The translations under genes and the position numbers were made by a program. DNA of 64,000 bases, taken from NCBI GenBank assembly GCA_025093555.1, contig JAIWNF010000014.1, forward strand, positions 124,001 through 188,000, given 5' to 3'. Shown here piece after piece: positions 10,920 to 61,574 of this stretch (positions are counted from its first letter, which is position 1; each line of letters begins with the position of its first letter). This stretch comes from Circinella umbellata (taxonomy: Eukaryota; Mucoromycota; Mucoromycetes; Mucorales; Lichtheimiaceae). The notes below the pieces were generated by a model. It did not search any database. It saw only the letters and a program-made list of their open reading frames with translations, and was not told the origin of the DNA.

Positions 10920-12648
10920 ATGAGAGAAATTATTCACGTTCAAGCAGGTAAATTAAACTGGAAGAGAAACGAAAAAAGTTTTTTTTTCATGCTTTTCATG
11001 TTTTTGATTCAAGGTCTCTAACAGAAAATATTTTTTATTTTTCTTTTCAGGCCAATGTGGTAACCAGGTACATACTTTTTTTTTCTTTTGCCCTCTGAAA
11101 CGTTTATTTCTACGTAACAGAGAACTAAATTATAAAACAAAATAATAATATCAATAGATTGGTCAAAAATTCTGGGAAACCATCAGTGCTGAACATGGCC
11201 TCGATGGCAATGGTAACTATGTTGGTGACAATGAACTTCAACTTGAACGTATCAATGTCTTTTATAATGAAGGTTCTAAAGGCAAATATGTCCCAAGGTA
11301 AATAAATATACTATAATTAATATGAAATAAAAATAATTAAACCGGTTATATGTATATAATAGAGCCGTATTGGTAGATCTTGAACCTGCTACCATGGATG
11401 CTATCCGTAGCAGTCCCTATGGTAAGATTTACCGTCCTGACAACTTTGTCCATGCCCAATCTGGTGCTGGTAACTCGTGGGCCAAGGGTTACTACACGGA
11501 AGGTGCTGAACTTGTCGAATCCATTTTGGATGTTATTCGCAAGGAAAGTGAAAACACTGATTGTTTACAAGGTTTCCAACTTGCTCATTCCATTGGTGGT
11601 GGTACTGGCTCGGGTCTCGGTTCTTTGTTGCTTTCCAAGATCCGCGAAGAATACCCTGATCGTATCTTGAGTACCTACTCTGTTGTCCCATCACCTAAGG
11701 TCTCTGATACCGTTGTTGAACCTTACAATGCTGTTCTTTCCGTTCATCAATTGGTTGAAAACTGTGATGCTACTTTCTGTATTGATAACGAAGCTTTGTA
11801 CGATATTTGCTTCCGTACATTGAAGCTCGCTAACCCCGGTTATGGTGATTTGAATCAATTGGTTTCTGCTGTTATGTCTGGTGTTTCTACTTCCTTGCGT
11901 TTCCCAGGTCAATTGAACTCTGATTTACGTAAATTGTGTGTCAACATGGTTCCTTTCCCCCGTCTTCATTTCTTTATGGTGGGTGTTGCTCCATTGACCG
12001 CTTTCAACTCTCAACAATATCGCAACTTGAGCGTTCCTGAATTGACTGCTCAAATGTTTGATGCTCGTAACATGATGGCTGCTTCTGATCCTCGTCACGG
12101 TCGTTACTTGACTGTCGGTACCATTTTCCGTGGTCGCTTGTCTACGAAGGAAGTTGAAAATCAAATGTTGGCTGTTCAACAAAAGAACTCTTCTTATTTC
12201 GTTGAATGGATTCCTAACTCTGTCAAGTCATCCTTGTGTGATATCCCTCCTGTTGGTTTAAAGATGTCTGGTACTTTTATTGGTAACAGCACTGCTATCC
12301 AAGATTTGTTCAAACGTGTCAATGAACAATTCACTGCTATGTTCCGTCGTAAGGCTTTCTTGCATTGGTACACCAGTGAAGGTATGGATGAAATGGAATT
12401 CACTGAAGCTGAATCCAATATGAACGATTTGGTATCAGAATATCAACAATACCAAGAAGCTACCATTGATGATGAAATGATGGGTAAGTTAATTACATAC
12501 ATGGGAAGGGTTTTTTTTGAAAAGAAAATAGAAAGAAGTGCTATTCTATGGTGATAACTAATCATTATTATTGTTCAATTAAATAGAAGATGATGAATAC
12601 CTTGAAGAGGACCAATATGAAGAAGATGTATTGGATGATGAACAATAA
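10920..12648 (+). CDS. Beta-tubulin
   Basis: Five exons (10920-10947, 11051-11067, 11158-11297, 11363-12483, 12587-12648) give 455 aa. It starts [17 protein letters not shown]; the MREI start is the tubulin autoregulation motif. The GTP-binding loop GGGTGSG lies in [20 protein letters not shown], and [17 protein letters not shown] and [20 protein letters not shown] are also clear. A 17-nt second exon encodes only GQCGNQ-region residues, a known feature of fungal beta-tubulin genes. The acidic tail ([19 protein letters not shown] then [10 protein letters not shown]) is somewhat longer than the usual 445-450 aa products. Function: polymerises with alpha-tubulin into microtubules and is the usual target of benzimidazole fungicides. 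More than one beta-tubulin gene is common in these fungi; which paralogue this is cannot be told. Confidence 0.97.
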
Positions 12649-28099: not shown

Positions 28100-29512
28100 T
28101 TGTTTCCATTGACAAATCAGATGTCCTGTTGCCAAGAATGTTTTTTAGCACAAGCCTTGGCATTCTTTAGATATATAAAAAAGAATACACCAAATGCTCG
28201 TCTTCCTTTTATTTTATCCACAATTACACCAGAAACCGACCACATGATAATGAACATTCGATTCTTGTATGAAAATGGGAAAGGCTCTGTAGTCGACAAG
28301 TATGGCATGCCTAAACCAGTGGATTATATTGTTGATGAGGAGTAGTTTCGTCTTGGAACATTGAGCTCAACAGCCTCTGGAGAGCGAGAAAGAGACTGAG
28401 GCAATGCAGGTAGAAAAGGAAGTGATAAAGCCTCGTAGTAATGTTGTTATGGGTAAAGCTTCAATAAAACGGAATTATGCACGCTATTCTGATCAGGACA
28501 AAGTGAGATTCTTTAAGCTGCTGTTTGAAAAGTGTCTTAGTGCTGATGCTGTTGTTGCAAAATGGCTTGGGATTCACGTTCGTACAGCACAGAAATAGGC
28601 CGAACAGTACGAGAGAGATCCTAATAGTATCTTTGAGAAACGGAGAAAGACTGGTCAACCATACATTCTCAATGAGAAACACAAAAACGTTATTGTTGAG
28701 TGCATTGATGCAAACCCTTCTGTTGTCTTGGACGACGTGATGAAGCACCTAAGACAAGTATTCACAGAATTAAAAGTATCTAAAAGTACTGTGTTTGATT
28801 TAGTAAAAAAGCATTGCAACTTGACCCTCAAAAAAGCTAGGTTTCAACCTATTGATTGGAACAGCGAGGAAAAGATTCAAGAGCGCCTGGACTAGATTCT
28901 ACCACTAACTGTGTCTTTCTTGATGAATCTGCATTTCATATTAATTTGAAACATAGTATGTTATGGTCAAAGAAAGGCTCTCCTGCAGTCATCACCATTC
29001 CCAAAACACGAGCAAAAACAACAATCATTCTAGGCGCGATTTCTGCCCAAGGTCTGATTAAATGCAGCCTCAGGCTTCCTCAGCCTCCACCAAATAAAAA
29101 GAGAAAGCGAGGAGAAGGCGCTGGGTTTGTGAGGAAAGGCACAGTTAAGGTTCACTATGTTGGTTTTTTAAAAGCCACAATGGATGAAATGGACCGGTAT
29201 CTACATATGAAAGGTCATTACCTCGTGATGGATAATGCTTCAACCTATACATCGGCTGATATCGCTAAATATGCAGAATCTCGTGGTTATCACTACATCT
29301 ACTTGCCCCCCTATTCTCCAGAGCCTAATCCAATTGAACAGTTTTGGTCAGTGGTTAAGAGTAAAGTAAAACGTAACAAGTTTCTAGAAACAGAGACCCT
29401 GATGACAAGAATCGGCGATGCTTCTAATAGCCTGAAACTGAATGACTTCAAATACTTTGTTTGGCATTCACATGAATGCTTGGACAAGTGCCGTAATAAG
29501 CAGAGCCTCTGA
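28100..29512 (+). pseudogene. Tc1/mariner-like (IS630-Tc1 superfamily) transposase, inactivated
   Basis: The 5' part reads NTPNARLPFILSTITPETDH, then a helix-turn-helix region (RYSDQDKVRFFKLLFEKCLS, WLGIHVRTAQ) ended by TAG at 28596-28598, continuing KTGQPYILNEKHKNVIVECI. The catalytic region is in another frame from about 28860: CVFLDESAFHIN (first Asp), YLVMDNASTYTS (second Asp), and YSPEPNPIEQFWSVVKSKVK (Glu), with 34 residues between the second Asp and the Glu, i.e. DD34E. The frame change at about 28885 and the stop mean it cannot make transposase. The catalytic half alone is a clean 218-codon frame ending at TGA 29512. Confidence 0.85.
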
Positions 29513-31414
29513 AAAGCCTGCAAAGTAACTTTTTTGATGACCCTCGTTTTTTTTCAGCAATCTCAAACACAATTCACCGCATTTTCGATGATGCCGCCTC
29601 TCTTTTTCTTTTATCAGATACACATTGACCTAGCTTCTGATCATACTTTCGCGCTTGGGACTACTGCTATGTAATAGTCCAGGGTAACAATTAACATTTT
29701 TATTGATATGAATATTCAGATACATAATTATATATGTGGGGGGATGGGTATTGTGACTAATACTAACTATCAAACTATCACACACTATAATTAGTACGTT
29801 TATCATCATTACTCAAAACGTAATGCGCAAAAGCGACGCCGATCCTTGGTGGAATCAATCAAAGAGTAGATGGTAGAGTGAGACGGACGCCATTTCATTT
29901 CCCAAAACTCTTCTTCATTCAAAGGTCGACACAGCCGCCAAAAGGTTTCTGCCACCATCAGCAGAGTGAGTATATTCTTCAAATTAACAAATGACGCCAA
30001 TTCTTCCAAGGAACGTGGAATGTGAGCTGGTCAATTTCTTGTACAAGATTGCACGCTTGTACTTTAATAATAATTCTACCATGAAAAAACCTACTGATAA
30101 AAAAAAGTCATCTTACTGTTTGCGTGCATGTGATTTGGGCCACCTGGAAACCTGTTCGGCTGTTGAAAGTCTTTCATCATAAGGACAGTCTCAAGGGCGT
30201 TCGGTTGTGCCTTTTAAATAAACGACAAAACATACTAATCCCAAGCATCTCTCAAGTTTCTCAAACCAATTAGTCAAAAAAGATAGAAGATGAGGCAAAA
30301 ATGTAATCGTCTTGTTGATGTAGTTATGCTTGTACTGATATAGAATAGCTTGGTTGTCGCTGTTAATAGAATGATACTATCTAGACTATAATAATAATGT
30401 TTCGAAATACATACCAACTCTGGAGGTTGGTGAAGAAATGATTATTTATAAAAAGAAGGAAAAGGGGAGAGCAAATTACAATTGTACTATATATACTATT
30501 TAAGACAAAAAGTATTATATGACTCCTGGATTTTTAGACTGCTTTTGCGCATCATGAGTTTTTTTTTTTTTTTTTTTGCTTGGTTAGAAAAAGGATTATT
30601 ATAAGGTCCAAGAAGGGGATTGCCTTTGCATATAAAAGGAATGACATATTTTTTTCTTACCATAGTACCGATCATGTCAGTAACAGTTTCCTCATAGATC
30701 CTTCTTGCTCACCATGTTCGTTTTGGACTGTTTAAAAATTCCAAAACACTTGTATTTCTCTAAGATAGATTATCTAATAAATATGGAAGGCGTAAATGTA
30801 AAATATTGATTAATAGAAAACGAAAAAAAAAAATGAAATGTATGTAATATAAACAAATATAGAAGAACGTGTAGTCAAGGAGAGGGAAGAGAGGCAGAAC
30901 GAACTACATGGTCCATCACTGTCTACTTGGGTTACAATGAGCGGGAAACAAAGCAGAAGGATCTACAGAGTCCATCAAAGAGCCCTTTTGAAAATTATTG
31001 TAAACGATAAATAGGAAGAAAAAAAATTGTTTGATACTTAGTTTTTACCTTGCTTCCAGTAACAAGTAATTCCTCCACCTTCTTTTTTTTCAGTGTAAAA
31101 TTACAGAGAAAAATATATAAATTACACCCCTTTTTCAATATGATGGAACAGCACTAACACAAAAGAATGTCTATATATTATACTGATAAATAAAAATATA
31201 TTAGAAAATACAAATGCATGTTAAAACATTACGACTTAATAATAAACTCTTACTATTTGTTTTTGATTGTGTGGGCAAAAAGAGAAACGCAATGGTTGTG
31301 TGTGCTGCACTGGTAAGAGTTGTCTGAATGTAAAAAAACAGAGTTGCTTGGCTGCATTGATTTGCTGCCTGGTTTAGTTGTTGCCCTTTATTTTAAAATC
31401 ATTGTTTGGGTACC
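29513..31414. other. Gene-poor stretch with coding scraps
   Basis: A minus-strand frame at 29809-30009 (contains FWRLCRPLNEEEFWEMKWRP) looks protein-like but has no family I know and no clear start or splice partner. The rest (30200-31400) is AT-rich with homopolymer runs, including about 18 T near 30560, and I see no gene. Confidence 0.35.
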
Positions 31415-33598: not shown

Positions 33599-34431
33599 CC
33601 ATGAGGGTTAAATTTAAATCTAATGATTATAAAAATTTCTTTATTTTTATATCATCTGTAATATTTATATAACTATAAAATAAATAAAATTTATTATTTA
33701 TTTATACATATTATTTATTATTAAATATTTTAGCCCTAAACCACTTGCACTACCACCACTACTTACTATTAATAAAAAACAACTACAAATGACTATAAAA
33801 GAAAATCATTTTATTCTTTCCTTTTTCTGTCTAGTACAAATATCTTTATATATTTGTAAAAAGAAAGAGAATCCTTTCTTTTTTAAAATATTCCATCAAT
33901 ATTTTATTTTTTTATTATTAATTATATATATAAAAAACATTTAAGATCAATTAATTTTTATGTTTTTCAGAAATAAATATATATAAAAATAAAAGTTTAT
34001 TAATAAGAATCAGCTTGCTACTGCAAGCTTTTAACCCTTCATGGTGATTCTTATTGATATTTAATTTATAATATATTTAATATTTCAAGATGTTTATAAA
34101 CATAAAATTAATTTTAAGAATTATATATCTTTATTAAATTATAATTTTCACATGTTAATTAAATGATTACGTAATCATTTTAACACGTGATATAATGGCG
34201 GGTCTGAAGTGCCTGGGCCCAAAAATTAGTGAATCAATTTTTGAGATAGTCTCTGAAACAATGTCAAACAGCCTATCAAATTGTGAGATAGTCTCTTTTG
34301 TACTACGCGAAAAAAGCGTGCTTTTCATACCCCTCTCTTTTTTGCATTGACAATATCAAAATAAAAGAGGCCAATAGGCACCTGTCACTTTATTTCTTTT
34401 TCCTTTTTGTTTTATACTTTTTTTAATAAAA
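33599..34431. promoter_or_regulatory. Upstream region of the DDE-exonuclease gene with several palindromes
   Basis: Contains an 11-bp inverted repeat AATAAGAATCA / TGATTCTTATT spanning about 33999-34052, a perfect 20-bp palindrome at 34161-34180 (AAATGATTAC and its complement) lying inside a longer imperfect palindrome (about 34149-34189), and two direct copies of TGAGATAGTCTCT about 50 bp apart (near 34232 and 34283). None is a named site. Position suggests promoter elements or binding sites for the encoded protein. Confidence 0.45.
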
Positions 34432-37400
34432 ATGAATACTGGAAGCCCGTTTAAATTTAATACAAAGCAAAGAGGAAGAAAAAAGGGTGGTGCTAATCCA
34501 AATGGTGGCAGACATAAAAAGCAAGTAGCAGGTCAAACATCTTTAAATTTTGGATCAGCTCTACTATCCATTGATCATCAAGAAGCTAGCAATTCCGCTT
34601 CTAAAACGGTTCGTCAAAATATTTAATAAAACATCGTGAAAAGTATTTTTTTAACAGTAGGACATGTATAATGTAATATAGAGTTCTCGTCAACAAAATA
34701 TCCCTATAGTATCGAGCGATGATAATGTTCCTTCATCATCAAACAATAGTGATATATCTTTATCATTCGACAGTAACATAGATGATAGAGTGCCTAACTC
34801 TGGAAACAATGTGAGTAGGCTTGTGTGGCTCTAACAAAATAAAAGCTTATAGTGTATAAAATGCTAACCAACTTTATACTTTCAATATAGCCCGAGGCAA
34901 CAGTTGATAATAACATTTGTACCATTGGTACTTTGTCACGAAACACGGAAGTGGAAGATATGCCTCAATGTGACGACGATGATGATAGCAGCAGTGAAGC
35001 AGAAGATGATCTAACGGTAGAAGATGATAGTACTAATTATGTGGAGGCTCCAATTCTCACCGAGTATTTTGAGAAGTTACAAAACCGTATAGTTAAGGAT
35101 GGCAAGCAAGGTCCACGAGAATATGATCAGAATCATAATACTTTTTGGATTGAACCACCTTCTCCATATTTTGCATTATACTCTGGGCCTGCTGATCCTA
35201 AAAAGTTATATCACCCTCGTGTTTTTCTTTGGTCACCTCATCGTTTAATTACTACAATGTTAAAGTGTCCCGATTGTAAACAAAAACTAAACAGTAAAGG
35301 ATTTAATAGCGACCCACGTGCTCGTCGAGTTGTAGACATTGATAGGTAATAATTCTAGTCTACGTTTTCGATTAATCGAAAACTAACATATATATCTTTC
35401 TTTAGTTGCTTCTACATCATGTCTTCAAGGTATCGATGCACCAATAAAAGTTGTAAGACTAGTTTAAACGCACATGACAGTCGAATTATGGAACAGTTGC
35501 CATCGCATCTTCAAGCTGAATTTCCAGCATATTTAACTCATCGAAGTGCTGTGTCCAAACACCTTGGCGATCTACTGCGTATAGTTATGCAAAATGGTAT
35601 AGGTGTCCATAGGTTACAACGAGCTTTACGAGAATTCCATACACTAAGACATGCCAGACTCCATTTACAATACCTAAACTCACTTGTGCATCGTCAAAAA
35701 TACCCAACCTTTCATGATATCCCTCGTGGTAATAATCCAATTATATACAAACGTTTTTCAAGTTTCAAAGATCCAGAAGGATATGCAGGTTATGTACCTT
35801 CAACTGGATACTTGCGACTAGTGTATACAGCACTTATCGACCAATTACAACCATTGATGGATAAAGAGTTGGCTATCCTTGGTGGGATTATTCTTAAAGG
35901 TGACCATTCCTTTAAAGTACCAAAGCATATGGCAAAACTTGGAGGATCATCCGCGTTCACTGCATTATATACCCTTTGTAACGAGTATGAAGAAATACGT
36001 CTCCAACTTTTAGTTCCAACAAAATCAACCACTCATCTTGAAGCACCGTTGAAGGAAATGATGCATTCGTATCGTTTGTATAACCATCAGCAACCAGATC
36101 TATTTTTTACGGACAATGTAAAGGGTGATCGTCGTCTGCTTGAACGGTCTTTACCGTCTCTCAAACGTACACTTCATACCAATAATACCCATACTCATAA
36201 TATCCAACAATCAACAAACGAAGATCATCAAAACCATCCAGTACCGTTTTTACAATTGCCCAGTAGTGTCTCAGTCAATCTTGTTCAAACCAACGAGCAA
36301 GTTGATCAAGCCGTTCAAGCCATCCGAAACAAATCCGACGGTATAAGTGATTCTCTTGTGGTTGGTTTTGACTGTGAATGGAACTACAATCCAATAACCA
36401 ATGCTACTGGAAAGGTTTCTTTGATACAAGTTGCATGTGCAGATTCAGTTTGGTTATTTGTATCAAATCATCTGAAGGTGTTCCACGTGCTCTGGCGTTA
36501 TTAATTAGTGATTCGACTATAGTGAAAGCTGGTCGAAATGTAAAAGGTGATTTAAAAAAGCTTAACCGTGATTTTGGCATAGCTTGGAAAGGTGCTTTGG
36601 AGCTTGGTGCGTTTTGCCGACGTCGAGGTGCTATTGAGCGTGGTACTTTGGGTCTATCAGACATATCTGCACTTGTGCTTGGTGGTAAATTGTCTAAAGA
36701 TTCGAATTTGCGTTTAAGTGATTGGGAATCCGGCGCATTAGACGAGAATCAGGTGATGTATGCTGCCCTTGATGCTTGGGCATCATTCAAAATATTTGAA
36801 TCGGTCAAGGATCTCAACGTTTTTGGAAAGATCCTCCCGGATTATATACCCGCTGGTCTCCATTGCTCTTTGCAATATCTTGGAAGTCCTGTAGCATTTG
36901 GTCATATTGCTGAACAAGTGACTCAAGATAACCAAACTAATTCGGTGGAGATTCCATTTACTGTTACAAGAGTTGGGATCCCTGGTGCATTGGTGATGAC
37001 AAAAGAAGGTGAAGCTAAAACTTTGTCAGAATTTGGATGCCCTCCTTTTGTTATTCCAGTCCCGATTTCTCTACTTCGTACCGAAAACCCCGATCAGTGT
37101 ATACCATCACCTTCCTTAATACCAAGTGAAAATGATACCTCCGTAGTTCCTGAACGTAATCCTGATGAATATAGAGAAACAAACGATGATTATATCGAAA
37201 CAGCATCAATTGCTACGTCCTCTTCTTCATCTGACAATGATTCCAATGATATACCAATTGCGCATGAATTAATTTCTACAGCAGGATCACAATATCTTCC
37301 AAATTTGACATCAGAACAGCAATATACCCAGTCCCCTAATCCAAGAATTTTAAAAGATATTTTTCATCTCATGGATATGATCAAAGTTCCAAAAAAGCAC

Positions 37401-39161
37401 CTTTTGGCTAAAGAATTCAAACGTCGTTTCCGAGATGCTATATTTGTTGCTAATAGTGAAGACCGTAACCGAATAGAAAAACATTTACGAACAATTGGCC
37501 ATTCATGGGATTACATGCTGACTAAAAATCCTGCTTGGGTTTTGCGCCGATGTAGAAGAACAGTTTCTCAGCCTGAAGATTTATACCCTGTCGTTCAAAA
37601 TCTTTTTGCTGAATATGGTCCATTAGAATGTGATACCACTAGAAAACCTCTTTTTGACCATGAAACATGGAAGCAAGCACGTAATGTTCTGAAGGCTATA
37701 CGTATGGGAGAAGTATCAGACCCACCAGAAATACCATTATATTTTGAAATGGGGGTAGATAAAAACAATCTTCCAATGTATCGATGTAGTAGAGGTACTA
37801 ATTCTCTTGAAGGAGGTGTGCATCAAAACATAATCCGAAAGTTTGGCTCGTTCGGTGCTGGCCCACATATGACCAACTGTATGTTAGCGGATTACCGATT
37901 ACGGCACAATATTGATGTATGTATTTGTACAAAAACCAACCAACCTAAATACTAGAATTAGAATTATTTATTAATTTTTTGTCCTGATATTCTTTTTTTT
38001 AAACTGTAGGTTGGATCAAAAAATAGACATGGTAGAAAACATTTAGGTCATTATGATCCGTGGTTAACACAAACTATCTCCAACTTAGAAGAGTCATTGC
38101 CATTGGATGATAAATCTAAAAAAAGATACGATCCATCAGCATCTCTCATAGTCAAGAATGCTTTGAAATTACGTAAATCTGATGAGACATTTGGTATCAC
38201 ACCTTTTCCACAGGAGATTGCTAGTAATATACACATCGATACTGTTAGCACGGAGAACAACAATAATCATGGTTTAGATCCATTATTACCAATCAGATTA
38301 AGTACGCGATTAGTGTTGCCAATTGGAGCTACAAGTAACCAAAAAGGAAAAATGTACAAGTATATTGCTTCAAGGTTAAAAACCAGATATGCTGTAACTC
38401 CTATTCATACCCGCCAGGAATTCGTTTTATTTTCAAATATAATGCCCAGAAGCACAGATATACCAATTGATTGGAATCAAAAAGCCCAACAATGGAATAG
38501 TAACCATGCTAATGGTAATGATATATTCTATAAAACACCTGAAATTCTCAAATCACACCACAAATCTTGGTGTTCTGGTCAAGTAATAGACCGTACAATT
38601 ACCAGAAATAACACCGAATTGATAACCATGAGGGAACAGTTGCAATCTCCTAGTCGAAGCAATGATATAAGTTTACCGCCGCCTCCAAATATACCAACTG
38701 ATGCAACAATTACTTTATCGAATACCAACTCCTTTGTGCTTCCACCTCCTATATTATCCAATGGCGTATCAAATTCTTCTTTATCAATAACTCCAGCTCA
38801 ACGGCCCCATTCAACATCTACACGCCAACAACAGCACGAGCCTTTCGTTCCGCAGGGTATACAGCCGTACATTCCACAAGATATACGATACTATCCGCCA
38901 CCAACTTCCAGGCCACTTCAACCACCCTCCTCATTTACACCGTCAATACCACCATCAGTGCCACCAACACCGCTAATACTCCCACAACATTCCCATATAT
39001 CTTTATCACCTAATGTACTCACACATCGCTCATCATCAACTGTAGTCCCTATTTCGACATGGGAATTACCACGAAAACGTACACGTACTTGTAGATGTGG
39101 CCTTGCAAACTGTAAAGGGCGCGCACAATCAAAGCTATGCCAAAATCGCAATCCTTCATAA
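34432..39161 (+). CDS. Large protein with DDE-transposase-like core split by a DEDDy 3'-5' exonuclease domain
   Basis: Exons 34432-34608, 34682-34810, 34891-35345, 35406-37916 and 38010-39161; with one base restored near 36459 the product is about 1474 aa. Order: Arg/Lys/Gly-rich N-terminus with QTSLNF; acidic stretch; Cys pairs (LKCPDCKQ, RYRCTNKSCK); LKGDHSFKVPK with D420; DLFFTDNVKGD with D490; then the exonuclease VVGFDCEWN (D576, E578), VSLIQVACADSVWLF, AGRNVKGDLKKL, and DENQVMYAALDAWASF giving the DEDDy Tyr and Asp; further on RGTNSLEGGVHQNI with E about 1056. D420, D490 and E1056 in those contexts resemble MULE/IS256-type DDE transposases. The tail is Pro-rich and ends in a Cys cluster (CRCGLANCKGRAQSKLC). 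Similar fungal proteins with an exonuclease domain exist to my knowledge. No terminal repeats were found, so mobile or domesticated is open. The frameshift lies between VWLF and IKSSEG. Confidence 0.78.
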
Positions 39162-39672
39162 CCCCTAAAAAAAATATTTTTATATTTTTTATAATCAAAC
39201 ATATATACCAATAACGTTCTGTGCTTCTATTTTTTCAAAAATAATCTATTCAATTTTCCTTTTATATCATTGCATCACCATATAATTACTCTTTCTTTTG
39301 TACTTGATAAAAAAGCTTTGATTTGCTTAGCTCAAATGTAATAAATTAAACTCGCAATAGTAATCGTAGTAATATCAATTACGTATATATTTCTTTATTT
39401 TTCCATACATAATGACATGCTTAGCTACTGTGTGTATATCATGGAATTTTTAAAAGTTGAATATCAATGTTCGTTACTACACATCAATAATTTTTTACAA
39501 GGGTATCTTTGGTTATAGATATTCTGGTCATCCTCTTTTTGATATAGTTGAAACCCATTATTCTGACGAACCCCATATATAAAGTAAAAGGTCTTGATGA
39601 CGCTTGATATTTTCGCCATGATACTTTTGATTTATCTAAAACCCATTATTCTAACGAACACCATTAACAAAA
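39162..39672. other. Spacer with a near-duplicate 35-bp segment
   Basis: AT-rich 3' region of the preceding gene. From about 39530, two similar segments containing AACCCATTATTCT(G/A)ACGAAC lie about 85 bp apart, just before the hairpin at 39673. No gene is seen. Confidence 0.4.
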
Positions 39673-39713
39673 AGAAGGATTTTGAGGGTGCTACGCACCC
39701 TCAAAATCCTTCT
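39673..39713. repeat. Perfect 19-bp inverted repeat with 3-nt loop
   Basis: Arms 39673-39691 and 39695-39713 (core GGATTTTGAGGGTGC and complement) are perfectly complementary around the loop TAC. The hairpin sits exactly where the 5' end of the Old Yellow Enzyme copy is lost, so it may mark an insertion or rearrangement point. It is not followed by features of a bacterial-type terminator. Confidence 0.85.
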
Positions 39714-39757
39714 AAAAAATTAAAGAATTAATTCCATCAGGCCCAGACATGTCACAC

Positions 39758-41089
<1,332 letters not shown>

Positions 41090-42395: not shown

Positions 42396-43351
42396 ATGGT
42401 TTCTAACTCTGCTCTTTTCCAACCCATCAAAGTCGGTAACCACCAACTTAAACACCGTTTTGTTTTTTGCGCCATTGACTCGTTTCCGAAGTGATGAAAA
42501 CCATGTTCCTACAGACTTACAAGCTGAATATTATTCTCAACGCGCAATAAAAGGTGGCCTTTTAATCACCGAATCTACTTTTTATTAATGCAAGAAATGC
42601 TGGTGCATATCCTAGAGCTCCTGGTATCTATTTAATCAAGAACAAATAAATGGCTGGAAAAAAGTTACATCGGCTGTACACAAAAAGGCGGTATCATCTT
42701 TCTTCAGTTGTAAGTAACAAAAAAAAATTACTAGAGCCACTTTCTCTTTCCCACTCGACTCCCCTCTTTTTTTTAAAAAAAAACTTATGTTGACTTATTA
42801 ACTTTTATATTTATATATCTTAAAAAAACTTTCATAGATGGCATGTAGGTCATGCAACCATTTCCCACCTCTTGCCTAACAAGGCTCAACCCGTCTCAGC
42901 CTCTAATGTTGCTATCCAAGGATCGTTTATGCTTTCGGCCGATAAGGATTATGAAGTTCCTCACTCTTTGTCTATTGATGAAATTGCTGAAAATCACACA
43001 GGAATATGTCAAGCAGCCAAAAATACTGTTACTGCCGGTTTTGATGGTTATAGAAATCCAGGGTGCCAATGGTTAGTGAAAAAGAAAATCTATAAGATTT
43101 TCATGAATTTTTTAAATAGATGATACGATATTACCATACATGGATATATTTTCCTAATTTATTGTATATAATCATACAGGTTTCTTACTGGACCAATTTT
43201 TTAAATTTTAAGCTCGAATTTCCGTACTGATCAATATGGTGGCTCAACTGAGAATCGTGATCGCTTTACTCTTGAAGTTGTCAAAGCTATCAGTGCTGCC
43301 ATTGGTACTGGACGTGCTGATATCCATTTATTTCCTTGGTCTGGATATCAG
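42396..43351 (+). pseudogene. Old Yellow Enzyme-type oxidoreductase, broken copy 2 (truncated)
   Basis: ATG 42396 begins MVSNSALFQPIKVGNHQLKH, the N-terminus missing from copy 1. Frames then shift repeatedly: the region equivalent to PLTRFRSDENHVPTDLQAEY is split over two frames, and further blocks are KGGLLITEST, WHVGHAT, KAQPVSASNVAIQGSFMLSA, SLSIDEIAENHTGICQAAKN and [20 protein letters not shown]. Homology stops at PWSGYQ near 43351, at what was an exon boundary; the last exon is absent. It is more decayed than copy 1 and in the same orientation, so the pair probably arose by tandem duplication. Confidence 0.87.
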
Positions 43352-58010: not shown

Positions 58011-58823
58011 ATGACAAACAATACACCGAACTACATTTCAATATATGACAACACAGCAGCAGCTAATTTAATCTATGTGTCCGAAAGTGTTTGTGAAGTA
58101 CTAGGTTATACACCGGATGAAATGGTAGGAAAAGGTGGTTACCAGTTTTTTCATCCCAGCGACATTAACGCATTAACGCGTGTTCATTCAGCCAACGTTA
58201 TGAATGAGAAAATGTCATCCATGGTTGCTTATCGAACACGTCACAAGGATGGTCATTATGTCACTATTGAAACGTTGGTTCATTACTGCTACGATTTACT
58301 TATGTGTACAAACTATTTGTACGATCCAAACAATGTAGGGCACAAGATTCGCAGCAACTCGGTAGACGAAGTGTTTATCGTAAACGAAAATGGTTCTCTA
58401 GAGTTGATAGGTGCCTGGAATGATAGTCAGGAACGGATGCAAGCATCATTACAAACACACCATCAATGGATCAATAATCGAGTGACACATATTCAAGAAC
58501 CTCGTTTTTGTTTGATATTGAATCGCTATACAGAGGATTCAACCATTGTCTTTGTTTCACAAATGGCGGAACGACTAGTAGGAGTACAATGTGACCAAGT
58601 TTTAGGAAGACCCTTATTGGATTATGTTAGTGATAAGGATGGAGAAGTCGTTCAACAGCAATTGGATATGACCAAAGGATCGGATATGATCATGCGTATG
58701 CGATTTGATTGGATTGTAAATAAAGAAGATAATACAACTCAAGCAGTAGAAGCAATTGTTGGTTCATCAAATGATGGGTTGGTGGTTGTGATTCGGCTAG
58801 CTTCCAGAATGACCGTGTCTTAA
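58011..58823 (+). CDS. PAS-domain protein, two PAS repeats
   Basis: A single uninterrupted frame of 270 aa, from MTNNTPNYISIYDNTAAANL to TAA 58823. Residues about 7-100 form a PAS fold (LIYVSESVCEVLGYTPDEMV, GYQFFHPSDI, YRTRHKDGHYVTIE). Residues about 160-245 form a second (LILNRYTEDSTIVFVSQMAE, VLGRPLLDYVSDKDGEVVQQ). The arrangement recalls White-Collar-type PAS proteins, but the LOV signature GxNCRFLQ is replaced by GKGGYQFFHPSD, so there is no flavin-binding Cys, and no GATA finger or other output domain follows. It may act as a dimerising sensor or partner. The start at 58011 is the first ATG after a long pyrimidine-rich leader. The lack of introns is unusual here. Confidence 0.85.
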   Translation: MTNNTPNYISIYDNTAAANLIYVSESVCEVLGYTPDEMVGKGGYQFFHPSDINALTRVHSANVMNEKMSSMVAYRTRHKDGHYVTIETLVHYCYDLLMCTNYLYDPNNVGHKIRSNSVDEVFIVNENGSLELIGAWNDSQERMQASLQTHHQWINNRVTHIQEPRFCLILNRYTEDSTIVFVSQMAERLVGVQCDQVLGRPLLDYVSDKDGEVVQQQLDMTKGSDMIMRMRFDWIVNKEDNTTQAVEAIVGSSNDGLVVVIRLASRMTVS

Positions 58824-60188: not shown

Positions 60189-61574
60189 TTACTGTTCATC
60201 ATGAATCAAACTGGGCAAATTAAAAGCTGATAAATGTTGTTGTTGTTGCTGTTGTTGATGATGATGCTGATGATGAAGATGATAATGTTCTTGTGGTTGA
60301 GCCCAACTTGCAGGTTTTACAGCTAAAGGTTTCGTGGATACTCGACGATCCATTGCTGTTCCCATTGTCACCGAATCCATGTTATTACCGTTGTTCGTTA
60401 TTGCTGTTGATGATGGTGATGTAGTAGTCGTAGTAGTAGTATTAGAACGTTTTGTAGCACGACCAAGACGATGAACACGTAAATGTCGTCGCATATTACT
60501 TTGTACACTAAACTTTCTTGAACAACCAGGTTCAGGGCACACAAATGGTTTTTCACCTGTATGCGAATAAGTATGAATACGAAGAGAGGATGGACGACTG
60601 AATCCCTTATCACAATAAGGACAATGATACTTATTACTACCAGCTTCTTTTCTAGGCTTATCACTTGAATCCGAATGATGACTTTCACTATCTCCACCAT
60701 CACTCATAATAGGCGATTGAGGTGTAGCATTTGTACTTGTCGTAGTGGTAGTTGTGGAAGAGGAAGGATAAAGTTGAGGTGGTTGTTGCTGCTGACTATT
60801 GTTATTGCTATGGTAATCAATAGGTCGTTGCAATGTAGGTTGAAGAATCAAATCCAAAGTATTCGTTGAGATAGCACGACGATGATACCCAGAAGTCTGT
60901 AAATATTGGGGTCGAGCCCTCGTATTATTAACAGAAGGCGTATTTGTAGAAGTTGTAGTAGCGTTGTTGGTCGTGCTACCGTCGCGCATCATCGGAGCTG
61001 CTGGTGATGAAGAATAAAGCGGCGTTGGGTATGGATGAGAATAATCAGAAAAGGAACGCGAGTGCATATTTCGAGGAGATCGGTGCTGTTGTAACAACAT
61101 TGATGTAGGCGATTGGAAATGATATCCTTGAGCTGTAGGTCGTAAGGGAGGTGGGGCTAATTCATGATGAAGTTGATGTTGATGAAGATTAGGTTCAATA
61201 GGTGCAACAGGTGTTGTCGAATTCGAAATAGATAACTTTTGCATATGTCCTGGTAACCCACTTGCTGTCATTTCTGGATGAGGAAACAAACTTCTAGGAG
61301 CATGAGATGAGGGGTGAGTGGAATAAGGGACAGAGTTGGTCATCAGGTCAGATGCATGGCGTTTATGCCCGCTGCTGCTGACTCGATGTTCATTTGGTGT
61401 TGTCGTTGTTTTTTCTATTTTATCATGAGAGAAAAAAAAAAGGATTACATTAATTTGGTTTTTTTTCTTATCAACTTTTTTTCAAAATATGAAAATTATC
61501 AAGTTACCTTCAGCGCCGATACCCTGGAGCATCAATTGAATGGAAGGAAGTTTGGGTTTGTCAATAGTATCCAT
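60189..61574 (-). CDS. C2H2 zinc-finger transcription factor with two fingers
   Basis: Two minus-strand exons (61574-61508 and 61414-60189) give 430 aa, starting MDTIDKPKLPSIQLMLQGIG. The middle is Ser/Thr/Pro/Gln-rich. Two classical C2H2 fingers lie at about 285-309 and 315-339: YHCPYCDKGFSRPSSLRIHT with linker HTGEKP, then FVCPEPGCSRKFSVQSNMRR-HLRVH. The tail has Thr, His and Gln runs (HHQHHHQQQQQQQH). The fingers suggest a sequence-specific DNA-binding regulator of the fungal two-finger class. The target site and process are not predictable from this. The first exon was chosen because its GT donor at 61507 joins in phase and supplies a start codon absent from the second exon's conserved frame. 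Confidence 0.88.

Follow-up and report, generated by a model that had tools for sequence, protein, structure and literature searches.

The 64,000-nucleotide stretch of the Circinella umbellata genome analyzed here (assembly GCA_025093555.1, contig JAIWNF010000014.1, positions 124,001 to 188,000 of the forward strand), hereafter the window, contains a DNA transposon whose transposase gene also encodes a predicted 3'-5' exonuclease. The locus is a mobile DDE DNA transposon with terminal inverted repeats (TIRs). The copy in the window (L016) spans positions 34197–39762 on the plus strand (5566 bp) and corresponds to a sharp-ended common unit, which was 99.4–100% identical in eight copies in the flank alignment; most other copies of the same subfamily were 5567 bp long. 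The left TIR is imperfect and approximately 23 bp long (34197–34219, plus strand), reading GGCGGGTCTGAAGTGCCTGGGCC compared with GGCCCGTGTGACATGTCTGGGCC when the right end is reverse-complemented, and it pairs with the right TIR at 39740–39762 on the minus strand. Two direct copies of TGAGATAGTCTCT lie near the left end (34242–34254 and 34284–34296, plus strand) and are candidate transposase-binding sites. Near the right end, the sequence contains a perfect palindrome with 19-bp arms (39673–39713), and a matching inverted hit recurred at the right ends of other copies.

The transposase gene occupies positions 34432–39161 on the plus strand, as judged from open frames and comparison of copies. 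A first-pass annotation of the same DNA had described one protein of about 1474 residues carrying transposase-like and exonuclease motifs. The motif series held, as GDHSFK, FFTDN, FDCEWN/NVKGD/YAALDAW, and TNSLEGG were all present in the proposed order and on the proposed strand, whereas the single reading frame did not: the gene is split into several exons, of which splice-like sites suggest about five (some boundaries are provisional), and its frame is broken in the window copy. Specifically, comparison with unbroken copies placed a one-base break inside the exonuclease, at about 36450–36480, leaving its halves in two frames (open stretches of 381 and 525 residues). The corresponding open frames of the window, 35359–36504 and 36378–37955, lie in different frames, and five other copies in the genome are open across the same stretch (865 residues).

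All parts of the encoded protein are on the plus strand. The first, DUF6729 (PF20499; 35122–35706), contains a short intron at approximately 35347–35405, and its two matches (E-values 7.5e-12 and 2.7e-11) each exceeded the curated cut-off. The first part of the predicted DDE core follows at 35890–36165, and consists of beta1 with the first aspartate (D1, 35902–35904), beta2, beta3, alpha1, beta4 followed by the second aspartate (D2, 36112–36114), and alpha2. A WRN-type DEDDy 3'-5' exonuclease lobe spans 36247–36830, with its residues at D 36370, E 36376, D 36549, Y 36759, and D 36771, and matched PF01612 at 63.7 bits against a cut-off of 23.6. Within the same insert, a small beta-rich subdomain is predicted after the exonuclease (36861–37100, model residues 486–565) and had no Pfam match. 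The core would then resume with beta5 and a D-x-x-H motif, DIFH (37347–37376; D 37356–37358, H 37365–37367). This conserved motif at 37356–37367 is an addition to those of the first-pass annotation. An alpha-helical insertion is modeled at 37377–37703, between beta5 and the glutamate helix, and ISCth4 also has one (PMC7780238). The helix bearing the third catalytic acid was placed at 37800–37844 (Glu 37809–37811) by the model and by conservation, and a C-terminal exon with a Cys cluster at its end (38010–39158) matched no Pfam family over the cut-off.

A structure model was made for the L012 copy. In this model, D166 lies in beta1, D236 just past beta4, and E802 in the helix that follows the helical insertion. 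Judged by topology and not by distance, the three acids thus occupy the positions expected of a DDE triad in a single predicted RNase H fold. Between alpha2 and beta5, the exonuclease formed its own lobe, predicted with good confidence, the arrangement that the structure check proposed with the first-pass annotation had anticipated. When the exonuclease-less relative P0012 was compared with solved structures, its best match was ISCth4, an IS256-family transposase, at 12% identity.

Conservation was counted over 57 rows holding both halves of the core, of which one was L012 from this genome and the other 56 were relatives from databases; the alignments A1 and A2 covered 57 of the 70 relatives from the core search. 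D1 and D2 were each kept in 57/57 rows, the histidine of the D-x-x-H motif in 56 (one gap), and the glutamate in 55 (one gap and one lysine). In an earlier alignment of 58 rows, which included fragments, D2 accounted for 48 of 50 letters. Together with the L012 model, these counts support the earlier proposal that the exonuclease is inserted between the second aspartate and the glutamate of a DDE core.

The genome (50.8 Mb, 210 contigs) was searched with the N-terminal core as the query, and at least 82 matches were found, many of them fragments. Besides the window copy, six matches were 99–100% identical over residues 1–367, and these near-identical copies indicate that the element moved recently in this genome. 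We fetched 24 longer loci and located ends by sequence, finding both ends in 13. Eight of these 13 copies, which represent three subfamilies whose ends are related, had exact 8-bp target-site duplications on their flanks: L011 (ATCAAAGT), L012 (TAAAATGG), L014 (CAGAATTT), L015 (GAAAATGT), L018 (ATAAAAAG), L019 (CTTTTTCT, composed of two letters only), L020 (CAATTTAT), and L022 (ATACTTAT). An automatic scan of 14 divergent loci for duplications and inverted ends gave two clear cases, L020 and L022. End points were identical to the base in five main-subfamily copies with duplications, with substitutions in L018 only. The insertion of L011 splits an NADH:flavin oxidoreductase gene, and joining its flanks minus one duplication restored an open coding start (MVSNSALFQPIKVGNHQLEHRVVLAPLTR...). 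A paralogue of this gene start, at 42396–42545 of the window, has the same site unsplit, and its frame contains stops.

Two loci had unusual internal organization. L018, on contig C109, was longer, with 8433 bp between its ends, matching duplications, and apparently an internal insertion. At C151:399469-403598, two left-end pieces, separated by approximately 4 kb, enclose a MULE-domain match, possibly a transposon within a transposon.

Relatives were collected by overlapping searches that returned at least 70 proteins from the core, at least 60 from P0012, and at least 3 from P0068 (the last two counts include the query). At least 102 proteins were obtained in all, and the family is larger than this collection. 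Relatives in Mucoromycota came from Circinella, Phascolomyces, Fennellomyces, Mucor, Parasitella, and Apophysomyces, and those in Basidiomycota from Mycena, Boletus, Ganoderma, Termitomyces, and others. Their source records use names of the type hypothetical protein, 3'-5' exonuclease, or DUF6729 domain-containing. The distant P0068 and P0069, which are JGI-sourced records, showed the same motif order, and the P0068 search added P0101 and P0102. P0068, P0069, and P0101 are all JGI-sourced and very distant, and each carries the exonuclease as well as the two Asp and the Glu positions. A plant protein, P0070, matched PF01612, covered 19% of the query, and was excluded.

The relation of the family to known transposases was also investigated by sequence. 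For the window and L012 copies, Pfam recovered two domains over its cut-offs, DUF6729 and the exonuclease, and no transposase family. A permissive Pfam scan was made of 37 proteins chosen from the 102 relatives. Two transposase-type models alone were listed: MULE (PF10551), weakly, in three of the 37 (best E 0.0034; one of them scored 15.8 bits against a cut-off of 27.6), and a ZSWIM1-3 RNase H-like domain in one, at E 0.12. ZSWIM proteins are kin to MULE. Transposase_mut (PF00872) was unlisted in the scan at E up to 10, a level at which HMMER filters drop most weak matches. No KDZ transposase family was listed at E up to 10, and a KDZ-associated CxC5 match appeared in P0017 at E 1.7. Pfam listed no hAT or P family in the scanned proteins, and an NCBIfam scan gave no transposase. 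In the genome, PF00872 matched six places, none at the main copies of the element, and PF10551 had 77 matches, none of which overlapped a core match. The first-pass assignment to MULE/IS256-type transposases is supported by the motifs and by the predicted fold, which is IS256-like in that ISCth4 was the best match of P0012; the sequence searches placed the protein in neither family.

Several results weigh against a mobile element with an exonuclease nested in its transposase, or against a role for that exonuclease. Duplications were absent at five of the 13 two-ended copies (L009, L010, L013, L021, and the window copy itself), and no pair of ends was located in 11 of the 24 fetched loci. The placement of the three acids was read from model topology, not from distances. 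The full model also matched ISCth4, but with a root-mean-square deviation of 7.1 Å, and because the exonuclease is itself RNase H-like, this match alone proves little. No Pfam transposase family exceeded its cut-off in the scanned proteins, and the family profile, searched against sequences of solved structures, recovered exonucleases and a few unrelated proteins, and no transposase. Five MULE frames of this genome, a shallow set, were compared with the family by hhalign and hmmsearch, and nothing significant was obtained. The Mucor saturninus relative P0042, which lies outside the Pfam-scanned set, has a precomputed DDE_3 domain beside its exonuclease that may represent an inserted transposon or a chimeric gene model. 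With regard to the exonuclease, 8/57 rows had lost at least one of its four acids while keeping the domain, D1, D2, and the glutamate, and the exonuclease-absent state comes from predicted Apophysomyces gene models. Weighing these points with the evidence above, we consider a mobile element with the nested transposase/exonuclease architecture to be very probable. A plain MULE element is not supported: no PF10551 match overlapped the core, and no significant profile similarity to the shallow MULE set was obtained.

The exonuclease was predominantly intact. All four acids and the tyrosine were complete in 46/57 rows, and the exonuclease residues were intact in the subfamily that has recently been amplified in this genome. 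The eight rows with decayed acids were P0008 and P0023, which differ at one acid only, and P0010, P0013, P0064, P0072, P0082, and P0089, which differ at two or more. Their inserts measured 366–390 residues in six cases and 351 and 353 residues in two. In P0010, P0013, P0082, and P0089, an exonuclease-length insert (353–390 residues) coincided with the loss of several acids and with retention of D1, D2, and the glutamate. The exonuclease domain was absent in three further rows (P0012, P0017, and P0018), which also kept D1, D2, and the glutamate. A tree of the core only was built from 57 of 101 rows, those more than 60% filled in both halves, with P0070 and P0102 excluded beforehand. On this tree, the absent state required one change, nested, and the degraded state six changes; thus, the insert looks old, repeatedly decayed, and lost once, provided that the gene models of Apophysomyces are correct. 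The root was weak, with the long branches P0068, P0069, and P0101 joining there. An exonuclease-less form as the ancestor was unsupported, since this form is nested on the tree, though the root is weak.

The loss in Apophysomyces could itself be an artefact of gene prediction, in which case these proteins would represent no natural exonuclease-free transposase. Automatic gene models can splice a stretch out, though introns of Mucorales are usually short; the linkers in the three models are 31, 18, and 0 residues long, and P0018 has SH3 domains and a junction without the residues preceding DIFH. Against this, the three models agree with one another although they come from two organisms, A. ossiformis and Apophysomyces sp. 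BC1021, and they form one clade with 100/93 support. We regard such an artefact as quite possible, though short of probable.

Based on the model, the protein would be an IS256/MULE-type DDE transposase whose RNase H core carries two insertions. The first, between helix 2 and strand 5, would comprise the WRN-type DEDDy exonuclease and the small beta-rich subdomain, and the second, between strand 5 and the glutamate helix, would be the usual alpha-helical insertion. DUF6729 and the C-terminal region may bind the transposon ends, with the palindrome at 39673–39713 and the paired TGAGATAGTCTCT as possible binding sites. The DDE site would cut and join the 3' ends of the transposon, and the exonuclease lobe, tethered near that site, would act on 3' ends made during transposition. 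If the exonuclease resected the donor flank, the broken donor would not be resealed. We tentatively propose that the exonuclease acts on such 3' ends, and most likely on the donor flank rather than the transposon end; the donor flank is favored because the five main-subfamily copies with duplications share their end points.

Alternatively, the exonuclease lobe could serve chiefly to support the structure or to hold DNA, as insertion domains of other transposases do, with incidental nuclease activity. The eight rows with decayed acids, the six changes on the tree, and the three gene models without the domain are consistent with this, as D1, D2, and the glutamate persist in all of these rows. 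However, retention of the four acids and the tyrosine in 46/57 rows, together with the intact amplified subfamily, suggests selection for activity in most lineages. We consider a predominantly structural lobe about as likely as action on the donor flank, each being quite possible but short of probable. It seems improbable that the exonuclease processes the transposon ends, for example by removing surplus nucleotides that lie 3' of the end ahead of the joining step. WRN-type enzymes do take nucleotides off 3' ends, and the lobe is inserted beside D2 in the model, which may put it near a 3' end. Trimming would nonetheless need a precise stop, given end points that agree to the base in five copies, and DDE enzymes generally generate the 3'-OH themselves. 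Finally, an ordinary host gene with an exonuclease, a Cys-rich domain, and chance DDE-like motifs would fit the two Pfam domains over the cut-off and the names in the source records, and can be dismissed given the TIRs, the 8-bp duplications, the dispersed near-identical copies, the split gene, the ISCth4 fold match, and the Asp pair kept in every row.

The surroundings of the window copy were also examined. Its right flank (39763–41089, plus strand) holds the remainder of the NADH:flavin oxidoreductase gene (PF00724) that the L011 insertion interrupted; three pieces downstream of the copy matched PF00724 over the cut-off. The left flank is common to contig C174 and the right flank to contigs C11, C157, and C160, and these contigs terminate inside the shared flanks, at window positions 29054 and 47422. 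Since they end within the shared flanks, the window copy appears to be either recombinant or an assembly join. An open frame at 28856–29512 has a DDE_3 domain, and the DNA around it (28300–29700) has lower-identity matches elsewhere in the genome. Other open frames of the window encode a tubulin (11370–12554), a PAS-domain protein (58011–58823), and a C2H2 zinc-finger protein (60189–61343).

Compared with known systems, the predicted protein shares with ISCth4 and the IS256 fold a DDE RNase H core, a helical insertion, and a C/DxxH motif. It differs in its eukaryotic host, its DUF6729 N-terminus, its long C-terminal region, and the insert, exonuclease plus beta-rich subdomain, that separates alpha2 from beta5. 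The exonuclease insert also distinguishes it from MULE/MuDR elements, and in WRN the exonuclease is carried on a RecQ helicase rather than inside a transposase. Alpha-helical insertions in this fold are described for Hermes, Transib, the P element, RAG1, and ISCth4 in PMC7780238, where the helical insertion of ISCth4-type and related enzymes follows the strand before the glutamate helix; the additional insertion here would precede beta5. For polymerase-B exonucleases, PMC3985635 mentions an insertion that falls between helix 2 and strand 5; the portion of that paper examined does not mention one for transposases.

Exonucleases carried by transposons are already known. According to PMC9587614, KolobokD encodes a DnaQ-type DEDDh exonuclease together with a DDE transposase, a combination like that found here, and KolobokE encodes a lambda-type exonuclease. 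The KolobokD exonuclease is similar to TREX and ERI1, is reported from mollusks, arthropods, and cnidarians, and is listed in the text examined as an accessory protein with its placement relative to the core unstated. The exonuclease described here is instead DEDDy, WRN-type, nested, and fungal, and the element makes 8-bp, non-TTAA duplications, whereas Kolobok makes 4-bp TTAA duplications (PMC9587614). Duplications of 8 bp also occur in Dileera (PMC12730594), and the word exonuclease does not occur in the available part of that paper. We found no report of an exonuclease before beta5 or nested in a DDE core in the literature searched, which was partial, and a Repbase or Dfam entry under another name may exist; DUF6729 was unmentioned in the full-text literature searched. 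The nested variant is possibly a new superfamily. A wider proposal would make it a new eukaryotic DNA transposon lineage at superfamily level, with 8-bp duplications and DUF6729, that joins an IS256-like DDE transposase and a donor-resecting WRN-like exonuclease in one chain and so controls the repair of its own excision break. As a whole, we consider this proposal possible but doubtful.

For the family, these results would tie DUF6729, a Pfam domain of unknown function, to a mobile element, and database proteins of Mucoromycota and Basidiomycota now recorded as hypothetical or exonuclease-domain proteins of this family would be renamed transposases. Among the insertions of DDE transposases, a whole second nuclease would be of a new kind, and its position ahead of beta5 would be an additional one. 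Natural lines whose exonuclease is intact, has decayed, or is apparently missing would offer a ready comparison for asking whether a transposase itself processes donor breaks.

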